This document shows positions 9,472-49,151 of a stretch of 64,000 nucleotides of DNA, one piece after another. Positions within the stretch are counted from its first letter, which is position 1. Each line of letters begins with the position of its first letter. Position numbers and translations under genes: made by a program. Origin of the DNA: Actinopolymorpha alba DSM 45243 (GTDB lineage: Bacteria; Actinomycetota; Actinomycetes; Propionibacteriales; Actinopolymorphaceae); contig NZ_KB892763.1 of NCBI RefSeq assembly GCF_000373925.1, forward strand, positions 1 through 64,000. Direction: 5' to 3'. The notes under the pieces are model-generated. The model saw nothing but the letters and a program-made list of their open reading frames with translations. It made no database searches and was not told the DNA's origin.

Positions 9472-10980
9472 TCAGGTCACCAGGGGAGTGAGGTCGCGGG
9501 AATGGCGCGACCGCTCGTCCGCGCGGACCGGCCGGCCATCGTGGCCGCGGGGGTAATCCGCGGCGAGCCGGGCGTACGCCTTCGCGACCCGCTCGACCGC
9601 CGTGGTGAGATCCGCCTCGGGCAGCGTGTACGGGAGCCGGACAAACCGCTCGAAAGCGCCGTCCGTACCGAACTTCGGCCCGCTTGCCAGGCGTACTCCC
9701 TCCTGCCCGGCGAGCACCGCCAGCGCGCTGGAGACAGGTGCCGCGAACTCACACCACAGGCTCAGCCCGCCGAGGGGTACGTCGAAGCGCCAGTCCGGCA
9801 GGTACGTACGCAACGCCGCGACGAGCGCGGCCCGCTGGGACCGTAGGGCGGAAAGGCGTCCGGCCAGGATCGGCTCCTGCCGGACCAGGAGTTCAGCGGC
9901 GGTCAGCTGGCTGAGGATCGAGGTGCCCAGGTCAGTCGCGGCCCGCGCACTCAGTACCCGCGACACCAACGACGCCGGAGCCCGAAGCCACCCGACCCCG
10001 AGGCCGCCCCAGAAGGTCTTGCTCGTACTCCCGATGACGAGGACGCCGCGTTGCGCGTACGCCGCCAGCGGCCGCGGCATCGCGTCGGCCGCCACGTCGA
10101 GCCCGAGGTCGAGGACCGTCTCGTCGACGACGGCGAGGGTACGGGTCCGGGCGAGTGCGGCCGCGACGCGTTCGCGCGCGGCGTCGCCCATGAGCAGGCC
10201 GGTCGGGTTGTGGAAGTCCGGCATGAGGTACGCCAACCGCGGCGCGGACTGGCGCAGCGTGGCCTCGAACATCGCGTGGTCCCAACCGTCCCGGCCGAGC
10301 GGCACCGGAACGACCCGGGCCGGGACCTGCCGGATCGCCTCCAGCGCGTTGGGGTACGTCGGATGCTCGACGAGGACGCGGTCGCCGGGGCTGACGAACG
10401 TCCGCAGGGTCAGGGCGAATGCCTGCAGGGCGCCGCCGGTGATCAGGATCTGGTCGGGTGAGGTCGGCAGGCCGCGCTCGGAGTAGCGACGGGCCACCAG
10501 CTCGCACAGCGCGGGCACGCCGCGGGCGGTGTAGCCGTGCCCGCCGAGGTACGCCGGCAGCGACTGGCTGGCCGCGGCGACCGCATCCGCCATTCCGGGC
10601 GGAGCGGTGAGAGCCGCCGCGGCGATGTCGAGTAGGTGGCGTTCCTCCTCCGAGGGCGGCGTGATGGCGCCGGTCACGGGGACACACGCGGACGGTGGCA
10701 CGGTGGTGCGGCTCGGGGCGCCGCGCCGGCTGCTGAGGAACCTCGACTCCCGCAGCGCCGCGTACGCCGCGGTCACCGTCGTACGACTCGTCTCGAGGGC
10801 GAGCGCGAGGTCGCGTTCACTGGGCATCCGGGTGCCGGGTGGCAGGCGCCCGTCGAGGATGAGGACGCGGATGCGGTCAGCGAGGGCGCGGTACGACGGG
10901 CGGCTCTGGCGCCACGTACCCAGGAGGCCGGCGAGCTGGCCGGCTGTGGTCGAGCGGTCCACCATGCAGGCCACTGTCAC
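9472..10980 (-). CDS. MocR-type GntR regulator with aminotransferase-fold domain
   Basis: A 502-residue fusion. An N-terminal winged helix of GntR type (PSYRALADRIRVLILDGRLPP and the PSERDLALALETSRTTV recognition region, residues ~28-75) is followed by a ~380-residue fold-type I aminotransferase domain. That domain has HNPTG (in DFHNPTGLL) and the PLP lysine in GSTSKTFWGG. MocR proteins sense PLP or an amine adduct. Starts at 10980 (ATG) or 10965 (ATG) are both possible. Divergent from a YczE-type membrane protein, an arrangement known for the YczR/YczE pair of Bacillus relatives, so it probably controls that gene. Confidence 0.9.
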   Translation of the reverse strand: MTVACMVDRSTTAGQLAGLLGTWRQSRPSYRALADRIRVLILDGRLPPGTRMPSERDLALALETSRTTVTAAYAALRESRFLSSRRGAPSRTTVPPSACVPVTGAITPPSEEERHLLDIAAAALTAPPGMADAVAAASQSLPAYLGGHGYTARGVPALCELVARRYSERGLPTSPDQILITGGALQAFALTLRTFVSPGDRVLVEHPTYPNALEAIRQVPARVVPVPLGRDGWDHAMFEATLRQSAPRLAYLMPDFHNPTGLLMGDAARERVAAALARTRTLAVVDETVLDLGLDVAADAMPRPLAAYAQRGVLVIGSTSKTFWGGLGVGWLRAPASLVSRVLSARAATDLGTSILSQLTAAELLVRQEPILAGRLSALRSQRAALVAALRTYLPDWRFDVPLGGLSLWCEFAAPVSSALAVLAGQEGVRLASGPKFGTDGAFERFVRLPYTLPEADLTTAVERVAKAYARLAADYPRGHDGRPVRADERSRHSRDLTPLVT

Positions 10981-10989
10981 ACAGGTGGA

Positions 10990-11003
10990 CCTGGAATTCC
11001 AGG
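10990..11003. promoter_or_regulatory. 14-bp palindrome between mocR and yczE-like gene
   Basis: CCTGGAATTCCAGG is a perfect palindrome placed 10 bp from the MocR start (10980) and 26 bp before the membrane-protein start. It is the best operator candidate in this short divergent gap. Confidence 0.5.
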
Positions 11004-11028
11004 CCAGTTGTCGGAGAGGATGCCCGAC

Positions 11029-11730
11029 GTGTCCGACAACTCACATGCCCCGGCCTACGCGTCCTCGCCCCTCGCCGCGCTCAAGGAAGGGCGACTGACT
11101 CGCCGGCTCGTCCAGCTCTACCTCGGACTGGTGCTGTACGGCGCCTCGATGGCGTTGATGATCCGCGCCGACCTGGGTCTGGACCCGTGGGATGTCTTCC
11201 ACCAGGGGCTCGTCGTCCACACGCCGTTCTCCTTCGGCACGATCGTGATCCTGGTGAGCCTGGTCGTCCTCCTGGGCTGGATCCCGCTCCGGCAACTGCC
11301 CGGGCTCGGCACGCTGAGCAACGCTTTGATCATCGGCCTGGTCGTGGACCTGGTTCTTGGGATCCTGTCCGTGCCGGAGTCGCTCGCCATCCGGATCGTC
11401 TTCCTGGTCGCGGCCGTCCTTCTGAACGCGGTGGCGACGGCGGCGTACATCGGCGCCCGGCTCGGCCCCGGACCACGGGACGGGCTGATGACGGGCCTGG
11501 TCCGGCGTACGGGCGGATCGGTGCGCCTGGTCCGGACGGGGATCGAGGTGGTGGTCCTGGGGATCGGCTGGCTGCTCGGCGGCACGGTGGGGATCGGCAC
11601 GGTGGTGTACGCCCTGGGAATCGGGCCGCTGGTGCACGTGCTGCTTCCCCGGCTGACAGTGCCGGCCGACTTGCCTGCGACACCGGCGCCCGCGGCTGCG
11701 GCTGGGACTGCCCCGCCTGGTGCGGAATGA
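11029..11730 (+). CDS. YczE/YitT-family integral membrane protein
   Basis: A 233-residue protein with about five membrane segments (LYLGLVLYGASMALMI, IVILVSLVVLLGWI, ALIIGLVVDLVLGI, VFLVAAVLLNAVATA, VVVLGIGWLLGG) and the family sequence DLGLDPWDVFHQG near residue 45. Function in the family is unclear, possibly transport. GGAGAGG at 11013-11019 abuts the ATG at 11020 but is 9 nt from GTG 11029, so I chose the GTG. The stop codon lies inside the left arm of a large inverted repeat. Confidence 0.82.
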   Translation: MSDNSHAPAYASSPLAALKEGRLTRRLVQLYLGLVLYGASMALMIRADLGLDPWDVFHQGLVVHTPFSFGTIVILVSLVVLLGWIPLRQLPGLGTLSNALIIGLVVDLVLGILSVPESLAIRIVFLVAAVLLNAVATAAYIGARLGPGPRDGLMTGLVRRTGGSVRLVRTGIEVVVLGIGWLLGGTVGIGTVVYALGIGPLVHVLLPRLTVPADLPATPAPAAAAGTAPPGAE

Positions 11731-11814
11731 TCACGTATACGTGGTCATTACCTGCCTCACGTGGCATGGGTGCCATGCGAAGCGGGCAATGACCACGTAT
11801 ACGTGATCATTCCG
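11723..11814. repeat. Perfect 27-bp inverted repeat with self-palindromic arms
   Basis: Arms 11723-11749 and 11788-11814 are exact reverse complements around a 38-nt loop. Each arm contains the perfect palindrome CACGTATACGTG (11732-11743 and 11794-11805), nearly extended by flanking TGAT/GTCA. The loop itself holds GCATGG/CCATGC (11764-11778). The left arm overlaps the stop codon of the yczE-like gene, and the element sits between two same-strand genes. It could act as terminator, paired operator or mobile palindrome. Confidence 0.9.
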
Positions 11815-11868
11815 GGCCGCGCCGAGGCTGCTGCCACCCCGCGCTCCCGCCCCGGATAGCCTCGCCCC

Positions 11869-13020
11869 ATGAGCGAGCAGCAGCACGGGTTCGAGACGCT
11901 TGCGATCCACGCCGGGCAGCCGGCCGATCCCGCGACCGGGGCCGTGATCACCCCGATTTTCGCCACCAGCACCTACCAGCAGGACGGCGTCGGGAAGCCG
12001 CGCCAGGGGTATGAGTACTCCCGCACCCAGAATCCCACCCGGGCCGCGCTCGAGGAGTGCCTGGCCGCGCTGGAGCAGGGCACCCGGGGGCTGGCGTTCG
12101 CGAGTGGCATGGCTGCCGAGGACACCCTGCTGCGCACCCTCTGCAAGCCTGGCGATCACGTGGTCATCCCCGATGATGCGTACGGCGGCACCTACCGGCT
12201 GTTCTCCAAGGTCGCCGAGCCGTGGGGGGTCGCGCACACACCCGCGCACGTCGCCGACGTCGATGCTGTCCGCGACGCCGTCCGCAGCCGGCCCACCGCG
12301 CTGTTGTGGGTCGAGACGCCGACGAACCCACTGCTCGCGGTCGCCGACATCGCCGCCCTGGCCGGGGTGGCGCACGAGGCGGGGGCGCTGCTCGTCGTCG
12401 ACAACACCTTCGCCTCGCCGTACCTCCAGCAGCCGCTCACCCTCGGCGCCGACGTGGTCGTGCACTCCACCACGAAGTACGCCGGCGGGCACTCCGACGT
12501 GGTCGGTGGCGCACTGGTCACCGCCAACGCCGAGTTGGGGGAGCGGCTGGCGTTCCACCAGAACGCGATGGGCGCGGTCGCCGGACCGTTCGACGCGTGG
12601 TTGGTGCTGCGCGGGCTCAAGACGCTGGCCGTCCGTATGGAACGCCACTGCGACAACGCCGAACGGGTGGCGGCGTTCCTCGCTGGGCATCCGGCCGTCC
12701 GCCAGGTGCTGTATCCCGGACTCCCCGAGCACCCGGGCCACGAGGTCGCGGCGAAGCAGATGCGGAGGTACGGCGGGATCGTGTCGTTCCGGCTCGCCGG
12801 CGGAGCGGCCGCGGCCGTACGCGCCTGCGAACGCGCGAAACTCTTCACGCTGGCCGAGTCGCTGGGCGGCATCGAGTCGCTGATCGAGCACCCGGGCCAG
12901 ATGACGCACGCGAGCGCGGCCGGCTCACCGCTGGAGGTGCCGGATGATCTCGTCCGCCTGTCGGTCGGCATCGAAACGGTCGACGACCTGCTGGACGATC
13001 TCGCCCAGGCGCTGAGCTGA
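11869..13020 (+). CDS. metB: Cystathionine gamma-synthase (trans-sulfuration PLP enzyme)
   Basis: Condenses an activated homoserine ester with cysteine to cystathionine in methionine synthesis. The 383-residue product has the Cys/Met-metabolism PLP fold: YSRTQNPTR (50-58), FASGMAA, the DNTFASP motif (178-184) and the Schiff-base lysine Lys203 in STTKYAGGHSD. The C-terminal SLGGIESLIEHP is typical of gamma-synthase and gamma-lyase alike. A gamma-lyase acting in the reverse pathway cannot be excluded from sequence alone. Confidence 0.85.
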   Translation: MSEQQHGFETLAIHAGQPADPATGAVITPIFATSTYQQDGVGKPRQGYEYSRTQNPTRAALEECLAALEQGTRGLAFASGMAAEDTLLRTLCKPGDHVVIPDDAYGGTYRLFSKVAEPWGVAHTPAHVADVDAVRDAVRSRPTALLWVETPTNPLLAVADIAALAGVAHEAGALLVVDNTFASPYLQQPLTLGADVVVHSTTKYAGGHSDVVGGALVTANAELGERLAFHQNAMGAVAGPFDAWLVLRGLKTLAVRMERHCDNAERVAAFLAGHPAVRQVLYPGLPEHPGHEVAAKQMRRYGGIVSFRLAGGAAAAVRACERAKLFTLAESLGGIESLIEHPGQMTHASAAGSPLEVPDDLVRLSVGIETVDDLLDDLAQALS

Positions 13021-16562: not shown

Positions 16563-16619
16563 GTTGGGTCGGGGGCACCCTTGTACGGCTCTTCTGGCCA
16601 AGGGTGCCCCCGACCCAAC
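16563..16619 (+). repeat. Dispersed hairpin element, copy 1
   Basis: Perfect 20-bp inverted repeat (arms 16563-16582 and 16600-16619, core TTGGGTCGGGGGCACCC) with a 17-nt loop, 44 bp past the preceding stop. A second copy at 33484-33540 shares 22 identical nt across the left arm and loop entry, and the loop ending TGGCCA is also conserved. Probably a repeated terminator-like element. Confidence 0.85.
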
Positions 16620-33483: not shown

Positions 33484-33585
33484 TTTGGGTCGGGGGCACC
33501 CTTGTAGGCCTCTATTGGCCAGGGGTGCCCCGACCCAAAAAAGTGAGGGCCCCCTGGCACAGGAGGTGGCCAGGGGTGCCTCGAC
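33484..33585 (+). repeat. Dispersed hairpin element, copy 2, with adjacent partial copy
   Basis: An imperfect inverted repeat (33484-33539) with left arm TTTGGGTCGGGGGCACCC and one-base bulges, 64 bp past the DUF2089 stop. It shares its left arm and loop with the element at 16563. A further partial copy, GGCCAGGGGTGCCTCGAC at 33568-33585, matches the right arm at 17 of 18 bases, 51 bp on. Confidence 0.82.
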
Positions 33586-49036: not shown

Positions 49037-49068
49037 AGCCCAGCAGGGCCGAATGCAGGTGCGTTCGT

Positions 49069-49120
49069 AAGACTGTGGAAACTCCGGGGTGTTATAGCAC
49101 CCCGGAGTTTCCACAATCTT
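49069..49120. repeat. Intact dispersed hairpin element
   Basis: Perfect 17-bp arms 49075-49091 and 49098-49114 (GTGGAAACTCCGGGGTG) enclose the loop TTATAG; the stem extends to 23 bp with one mismatch. A decayed relative lies at 41771-41813. Confidence 0.85.
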
Positions 49121-49151
49121 CGCAACGGGTTCAGGGCTGGCGAGCCTGACC

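Follow-up and report, generated by a model that had tools for sequence, protein, structure and literature searches.

A nested palindrome whose two arms are themselves palindromes lies between two neighbouring genes of Actinopolymorpha alba DSM 45243, raising the question of what kind of DNA it is and how it came to cover the end of a host gene. The stretch that was analysed, hereafter the window, comprises positions 1 to 64,000 of contig NZ_KB892763.1, and the features of the locus are collected in Table 1. The preliminary description, which had claimed exact 27-nt arms, a palindrome in each of them, a further stem in the loop and a left arm running over the stop codon of the yczE-like gene, is borne out in all these respects: positions 11723-11749 and 11788-11814 are exact reverse complements separated by 38 nt, CACGTATACGTG occupies 11732-11743 and 11794-11805 with centres 62 bp apart, and the TGA codon is inside the left arm. 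In particular, repeat detection gives longer arms of 44 nt, 89% complementary and 4 nt apart, because the 38-nt loop pairs too. With at most one mismatch, CACGTATACGTG has 2 matches in the window versus 0.04 expected, and 2 were reached in 0/100 shuffles. The fold of 11715-11825 is very stable both as RNA (-82 kcal/mol, z -12.4) and as DNA (-45.2 kcal/mol, z -10.8), with 0/200 shuffles as good in either case; a search of Rfam returned three matches, all far under the gathering threshold (e.g., 40.6 versus 150 bits).

Table 1. Features of the locus in the window; a dot marks features given no strand.
Feature	Position	Strand	Remark
yczE-like membrane protein gene (host gene, outside the element)	11020..11730	+	3' end altered by the insertion
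Stop codon (TGA) of yczE, within the left arm	11728..11730	+	in congeners the gene runs on and overlaps the next start
PLP enzyme gene (host gene)	11869..13020	+	overlaps yczE in congeners; here 138 nt after the yczE stop
Whole nested palindrome, with CGG/CCG stem extension	11723..11814	.	one copy of a dispersed hairpin element
Left arm hairpin AATGATCACG-TATA-CGTGGTCATT, 24 nt	11726..11749	.	matches pattern AATGAYCACGTWWACGTGRTCATT; 161 places in the genome
Inner 38-nt stem-loop, sequence variable	11750..11787	.	mean pairwise identity 0.685 vs 0.934 in the arms (copies among the matches listed)
Right arm hairpin AATGACCACG-TATA-CGTGATCATT, 24 nt	11788..11811	.	reverse complement of the left arm

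The gene that precedes the palindrome encodes a protein whose best named match is in Actinopolymorpha rutila DSM 18448 (75%); the region 9472-11730 presumably also holds a MocR-like regulator (GntR domain and aminotransferase) divergent from the yczE-like gene, and the product of the gene that follows is taken by us to be a cystathionine gamma-synthase-like PLP enzyme. The gene pair is kept in 5/5 congeners, in which stop and start overlap by 4 nt (ATGA), while in A. alba the element parts the two genes and the next ATG stands well beyond the yczE stop. Since the overlap is found in all five congeners and the element here both separates the genes and supplies the stop, the copy at 11723-11814 is an insertion, and its visible effect is to uncouple two genes that overlap in the five relatives.

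The genome of A. alba (7.98 Mb, 127 contigs) was searched, together with its relatives, for the palindrome and the arm, as the preliminary description had proposed. CACGTATACGTG with at most one mismatch occurs at 206 places (reversed control, 3), the 24-nt arm pattern AATGAYCACGTWWACGTGRTCATT at 161 (control, 0) and the arm pattern with any 4-nt loop at 182 (control, 0); the arm, whose confinement to this one site, along with RNA 3' ends right after it, had been said to favour a simple terminator, is therefore anything but unique. The pattern AATGAYCACGTWWACGTGRTCATT has 0 occurrences in five congeners and the pattern with any 4-nt loop is likewise missing from seven further genomes of the family; the arm pattern also had 0 matches in GTDB genome contigs and IMG/VR, searches that may omit the own genome and near copies. 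Among the matches listed, 71 unique copies were examined, of which 52 are doublets at 62 bp, 18 are single arms and one has its arms at 27 bp, and the total, estimated from the arms per copy, is about 100-120. The nested palindrome thus belongs to about 100 copies of a small hairpin element that is probably mobile. A plain terminator had initially been set against two other readings, paired sites for a DNA-looping dimer or a mobile palindromic element, and of these the mobile element is well supported by the dispersal of about 100 copies, their absence from five congeners and the empty orthologous site; the spacing of the arms would fit a protein that contacts both of them.

Each arm of the element is a 24-nt hairpin, AATGAY-CACG-(4-nt loop)-CGTG-RTCATT, with the loop variants TATA, TTTA, TAAA, and TTTG, and the stem is extended variably by the outer CGG/CCG. 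In 52 copies among the matches listed, the loop is less conserved than the stem (mean pairwise identity 0.85 versus 0.95), and 93.1% of cells are paired within the left-arm hairpin. For the long hairpin formed by the whole unit, 88.0% of cells are paired versus 22-44% with the partners slid. The count did not confirm an early impression of compensatory changes in this hairpin, which was rejected: shuffles give 88.2% of cells paired, and pairs changed on both sides number 9 versus 12.3 in shuffles, so that no covariation is seen. With pairing high and covariation lacking, the hairpin is built into the element, with no sign of selection on it. The flanking bases 1-3 are complementary at 0.69, 0.61, and 0.73 versus 0.41, 0.34, and 0.59 in shuffled pairs (values reached by shuffles in 0, 0, and 1 of 500, respectively), and thus the stem extends variably beyond the arms. 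In comparison with shuffled flanks, no consistent direct repeats of 2-9 nt, as a target-site duplication would leave, were found directly beside the ends or 2-6 nt beyond them. In L044 (C35:37958-38008), the arms are only 27 bp apart, by an internal deletion in which both arms were kept.

The element prefers the 3' ends of genes. Among the matches listed and with crude gene calls, 49/62 copies are located at most 100 nt from a stop codon, and a 5-base overlap with a gene end is found in 6/62, like that of the window copy. By the same gene calls on the same 62 copies among the matches listed, 24 lie between convergent genes, 31 between tandem genes, and 6 between divergent genes, with one unclassified; for the 61 classified copies, the p value of this bias is 0.005 relative to gap counts and 0.014 relative to gap bases. 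Moreover, 24/31 tandem copies are nearer to the upstream stop (p 0.003).

A sister subfamily with the loop TTTG was found in an unbiased 400-kb sample of contig C1. Two of its arms, at C1:229297 and C1:230561, which are two of the 18 single arms, face each other 1,264 bp apart and enclose a 335-aa ORF; each is followed on its inward side by the inner-stem sequence, and the inverted repeats of the unit extend over 83 nt (88%). This gene-bearing unit is missing in four congeners (G002-G005), in which the same neighbours are present, and in the fifth the site is occupied by about 1 kb of unrelated sequence. The 335-aa protein matches AbiEi_4 and AbiEi_1 and has no match to DUF559; over 30 homologues, AbiEi_4 is matched by 30/30, DUF559 by 8/30 (best E 0.00061) and REase_MTES_1575 by 2/30, and the PADLOC AbiEi models by 30/30. 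Residues E205, D242, E253, D255, and K259 are invariant in 30/30 homologues, as expected of a PD-(D/E)XK enzyme, and the C-terminal domain is, judging from these residues and domain matches, a putative Vsr/DUF559-like nuclease. No significant relative was found in the PDB (best E 0.68), and in the ORF list no second coding ORF, such as an AbiEii toxin gene, is present between the arms of the unit.

The own genome has one close copy of the gene, whose arms and inner stem are of the TTTG subfamily, and TATA-type arms were not found around any gene in it; four weak homologues (L200-L203) are without flanking arms and one of them is frame-broken. At this frame-broken relative, on contig C41, there is a 74-nt near-palindrome (TTCCATGATCAAGTCCGAGAAACTG..., L203:1206-1279). 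Two other loci with widely spaced arms, L189 and L175 (1.4 and 1.8 kb apart, respectively), were considered as gene-bearing units and rejected, as a relative of the nuclease is missing between their arms; the genes within L175 are apparently ordinary host genes. At the limits used, phages, plasmids, and viral contigs contain no relative of the protein or of the element.

Relatives of the AbiEi-nuclease with E <=1e-20 are present in at least 282/391 genomes of the order and in 0/5 congeners, five candidates per genome being scored. The surroundings of the gene were compared at 30 loci, that is, the own locus and the best match from each of 29 genomes, 23/30 being from genus g5. Inverted repeats of at least 40 bits enclose the gene at 26/30 loci (own included) versus 0/234 control windows, which lie 1 kb apart and come from unrelated loci. 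Mismatched flanks of different loci reach 40 bits in 18/180 cases, which are read as related repeats. The four loci at which inverted repeats of this strength are absent are L204, L224, L226, and L228, and in L204 arms are visible by eye. Long hairpins are formed in most of the 11 flank pairs that were folded, and at 9/30 loci one flank or both hold a pair of 12-bp palindromes spaced by 62-63 bp.

From lineage to lineage the repeats vary, often with the plan of two palindromes retained, and they are dispersed in most of the genomes checked. In genus g5, pairs of GGGGTYRACCCC at 63 bp occur in 11/38 genomes and 0 times in controls, with 35, 34, 34, 27, 26, 15, 5, 5, 3, 2, and 1 pairs per genome; in five of the six genomes with at least 15 pairs the gene is flanked by the same pair (L206, L212, L213, L215, L225), and the sixth is outside the set of loci fetched. 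In another genus of the family (G006), TGATCATGTWWACATGATCA is found 154 times, with a homologue that has these arms on both sides, and 0 times in seven other genomes. Ten repeats of this genome were read (L256-L265): the unit consists of one AT-rich arm with a different hairpin (GCCGCTCTACGTGGG...) on one side, and does not form a doublet. Samples of 400 kb contain flank-like repeats at a single place each in G089 and G039 and at two places in G352; no dispersed flank-like copies are present in the sample of G051, and in these samples flank-like repeats were never shared across genera.

Protein identity and flank similarity go together. In a Mantel test, which ignores the shared descent of host and element, r is 0.752 in genus g5 (22 loci; 0/5000 permutations), 0.574 among 11 proteins less than 70% identical (2/5000 permutations) and 0.756 over 28 loci, L224 and L226 being left out because they have no inverted repeats. 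The Y1/RAYT transposase domain (PF01797) has 0 matches in 7/7 repeat-rich genomes. The own genome has nine, none of them enclosed by arms in the stretches fetched; a single one has an arm about 1 kb away, which sits between two other genes, presumably oxidoreductase-like and prenyl-synthetase-like, and is therefore unrelated to the Y1 gene, so that a RAYT or IS200 enzyme was rejected as mobiliser.

Among bacterial hairpin repeats, REPINs are to our knowledge the most thoroughly studied, and as far as is known they rely on RAYT tyrosine transposases. In the passages of PMC3116915 and PMC3733652 that treat them, REPINs and RAYTs form REPtrons in Pseudomonas and others, and as portrayed there the likeness to the element of A. 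alba is extensive: a pair of short palindromes, inverted relative to each other and separated by a less conserved spacer, folds into one hairpin (as in the 52/71 doublets among the matches listed), the copy number is high, the sites are intergenic, singlets exist besides doublets, and the gene is flanked by the same repeats, whose sequence is specific to its lineage. In contrast, the partner here is a protein with an AbiEi winged helix and a PD-(D/E)XK-like domain instead of an HUH/Y1 transposase, and, where REPs have a GTAG tag, the arms here begin with AATGA and those of other lineages differ. Having the plan of a REPIN and lacking its defining Y1 partner, the element would function as REPINs do, without being one under that definition. 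TIRtrons, in which according to the relevant part of PMC3733652 Y1 transposase (TIRYT) genes are flanked by long terminal inverted repeats forming repeat families, are similar in having a gene between long inverted repeats, some of them self-complementary, which are dispersed as well, whereas their enzyme belongs to a fold class other than that of the nuclease predicted here. The N-terminal AbiEi domain recalls the AbiE type IV toxin-antitoxin systems, in which AbiEi binds inverted repeats, as far as the account in PMC3985639 goes; the unit described here differs in that its ORF list shows no AbiEii gene and that it has an extra C-terminal nuclease domain and inverted-repeat flanks. The domain matches and the invariant E, D, ExD, and K are shared with Vsr-like/DUF559 endonucleases, from which the family is set apart by its fusion to AbiEi and its coupling to hairpin repeats. 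Vsr-like endonucleases include homing endonucleases, and we know of no mismatch-repair or homing target for the AbiEi-nuclease family.

The repetition of the element, its restriction to a lineage, its insertion at a site empty in the congeners, and the conserved coupling of gene and palindrome across lineages were all observed. We consider it likely, though well short of assured, that the element is a REPIN-like non-autonomous mobile element whose mobiliser is the solitary AbiEi winged-helix protein with its Vsr/DUF559-like PD-(D/E)XK nuclease domain. The mobile unit would comprise two oppositely oriented copies of the 24-nt hairpin, with a spacing of 62 bp and a complementary stem between them, and would have spread to about 100 intergenic sites of one Actinopolymorpha lineage, favouring the 3' ends of genes. 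The winged helix may bind the palindromic arms as a pair, either in duplex form or extruded into hairpins; this step is proposed because a different species has an AbiEi that recognises inverted repeats in the promoter of its own gene, as reported in the portion of PMC3985639 concerned. The near-constant spacing of 62-63 bp, found in sequences that are otherwise unrelated, suggests a protein that reads the two arms jointly. The nuclease domain would then nick or cut at the arms, and the hairpin unit, with both arms kept, would be copied into another site or transferred there, frequently to a gene end, without target-site duplication. Binding, cutting, and transposition by the AbiEi-nuclease, and with them the movement of the element, are proposed on the strength of the association between gene and repeats. 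The gene flanked by TTTG arms may serve the TATA-loop subfamily too, since the 10-bp stem and the spacing are common to both subfamilies.

The repeats could instead be mobile with the AbiEi-nuclease gene as a passenger or parasite, for example one that homes into palindromes, and another enzyme spreading them. This is rather unlikely; it would account for the single close gene copy, from the sister subfamily, facing about 100 repeats, and for the fact that in genus g5 each gene flank is a complete repeat copy, as if the gene had been inserted into or between repeats, but the inverted flanks at 26/30 loci and a coupling of r 0.75 need a lasting tie, and no other candidate was found, Y1 transposases being excluded in 7/7 genomes. 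That the palindrome is a bidirectional terminator or an mRNA-stabilising hairpin kept for the host, its copies being convergent or duplicated terminators, is quite improbable. The very stable fold, the closeness of most copies to stop codons, the many convergent settings, and the nearness of tandem copies to the upstream stop all agree with it; however, no intrinsic terminator (stem-loop and U-tract) was found in 11600-11950, the arm sequence is conserved far past the needs of pairing (0.93 versus 0.69 inside), the element is missing at the same gene pair in five congeners, and the flanked gene of other lineages would be left unexplained. A role in termination may be a side effect of the element.

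Two further explanations have a much weaker claim. A MITE of an ordinary DDE transposon would likewise be small, dispersed, and bounded by inverted repeats, and would also be expected to leave a target-site duplication; the ends of the copies have no consistent direct repeats and the only gene found between arms, the AbiEi-nuclease, is no DDE transposase, which makes this origin highly improbable. The copies as operator sites of a regulator controlling many genes, an AbiEi-like antitoxin or another, are scarcely credible: paired palindromes at a near-helical spacing would suit such a protein, and AbiEi does bind inverted repeats in its own promoter in the system treated in the cited part of PMC3985639, but few copies lie between divergent genes (6/61), where operators are expected, congeners with the same genes do not have them, and between the arms there is only one ORF with a coding signature and no AbiEii partner.

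For the REPIN-like element with the nuclease as its partner, a wider claim can be made, on which we hold the evidence to be evenly poised: that it represents a new class of mobile DNA, in which selfish nested palindromes are spread by a single AbiEi-winged-helix and PD-(D/E)XK nuclease, unrelated to the HUH transposases, that reads paired hairpins six helical turns apart with coevolving specificity, is widespread in the order, and explains palindromic families without a known transposase. Some palindromic repeat families are without a known mobiliser, for example the CGTC repeats in the account that PMC3733652 gives of them. In the genomes studied here, hairpin repeats with the plan of REPINs are found where RAYTs are absent, travelling with a nuclease whose annotation, where there is one, is that of an antitoxin. 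Should this nuclease be what mobilises the repeats, a common actinobacterial antitoxin annotation conceals an enzyme of transposition, and there is another, independent way of spreading hairpins. The role of hairpin mobiliser, hitherto attributed to an enzyme of a very different kind, may also be filled by such a nuclease, for which it is unreported in the literature searched; in the open-licence literature, no paper on an AbiEi-nuclease coupled to palindromic repeats was found.

Other repeats were noticed along with the element. At L035, L040, L052, L064, and L067, several copies are nested in or adjoin a further repeat, recognisable by pieces such as TTCAAAACTCC and GGAGTTTTGAA and perhaps a mobile element in its own right. 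A second hairpin family is perhaps represented by the near-palindrome of L203 and by the 8-mer CGAGAAAC, which is enriched among the hairpins of the C1 sample (15 occurrences, 7 counts in hairpins). In the window, two hairpins at 16563-16619 and 33484-33539 have the common stem TTGGGTCGGGGGCACCC and are possibly another repeated hairpin, and a 66-nt inverted repeat, 85% complementary and without a loop, is located at 49062-49127.
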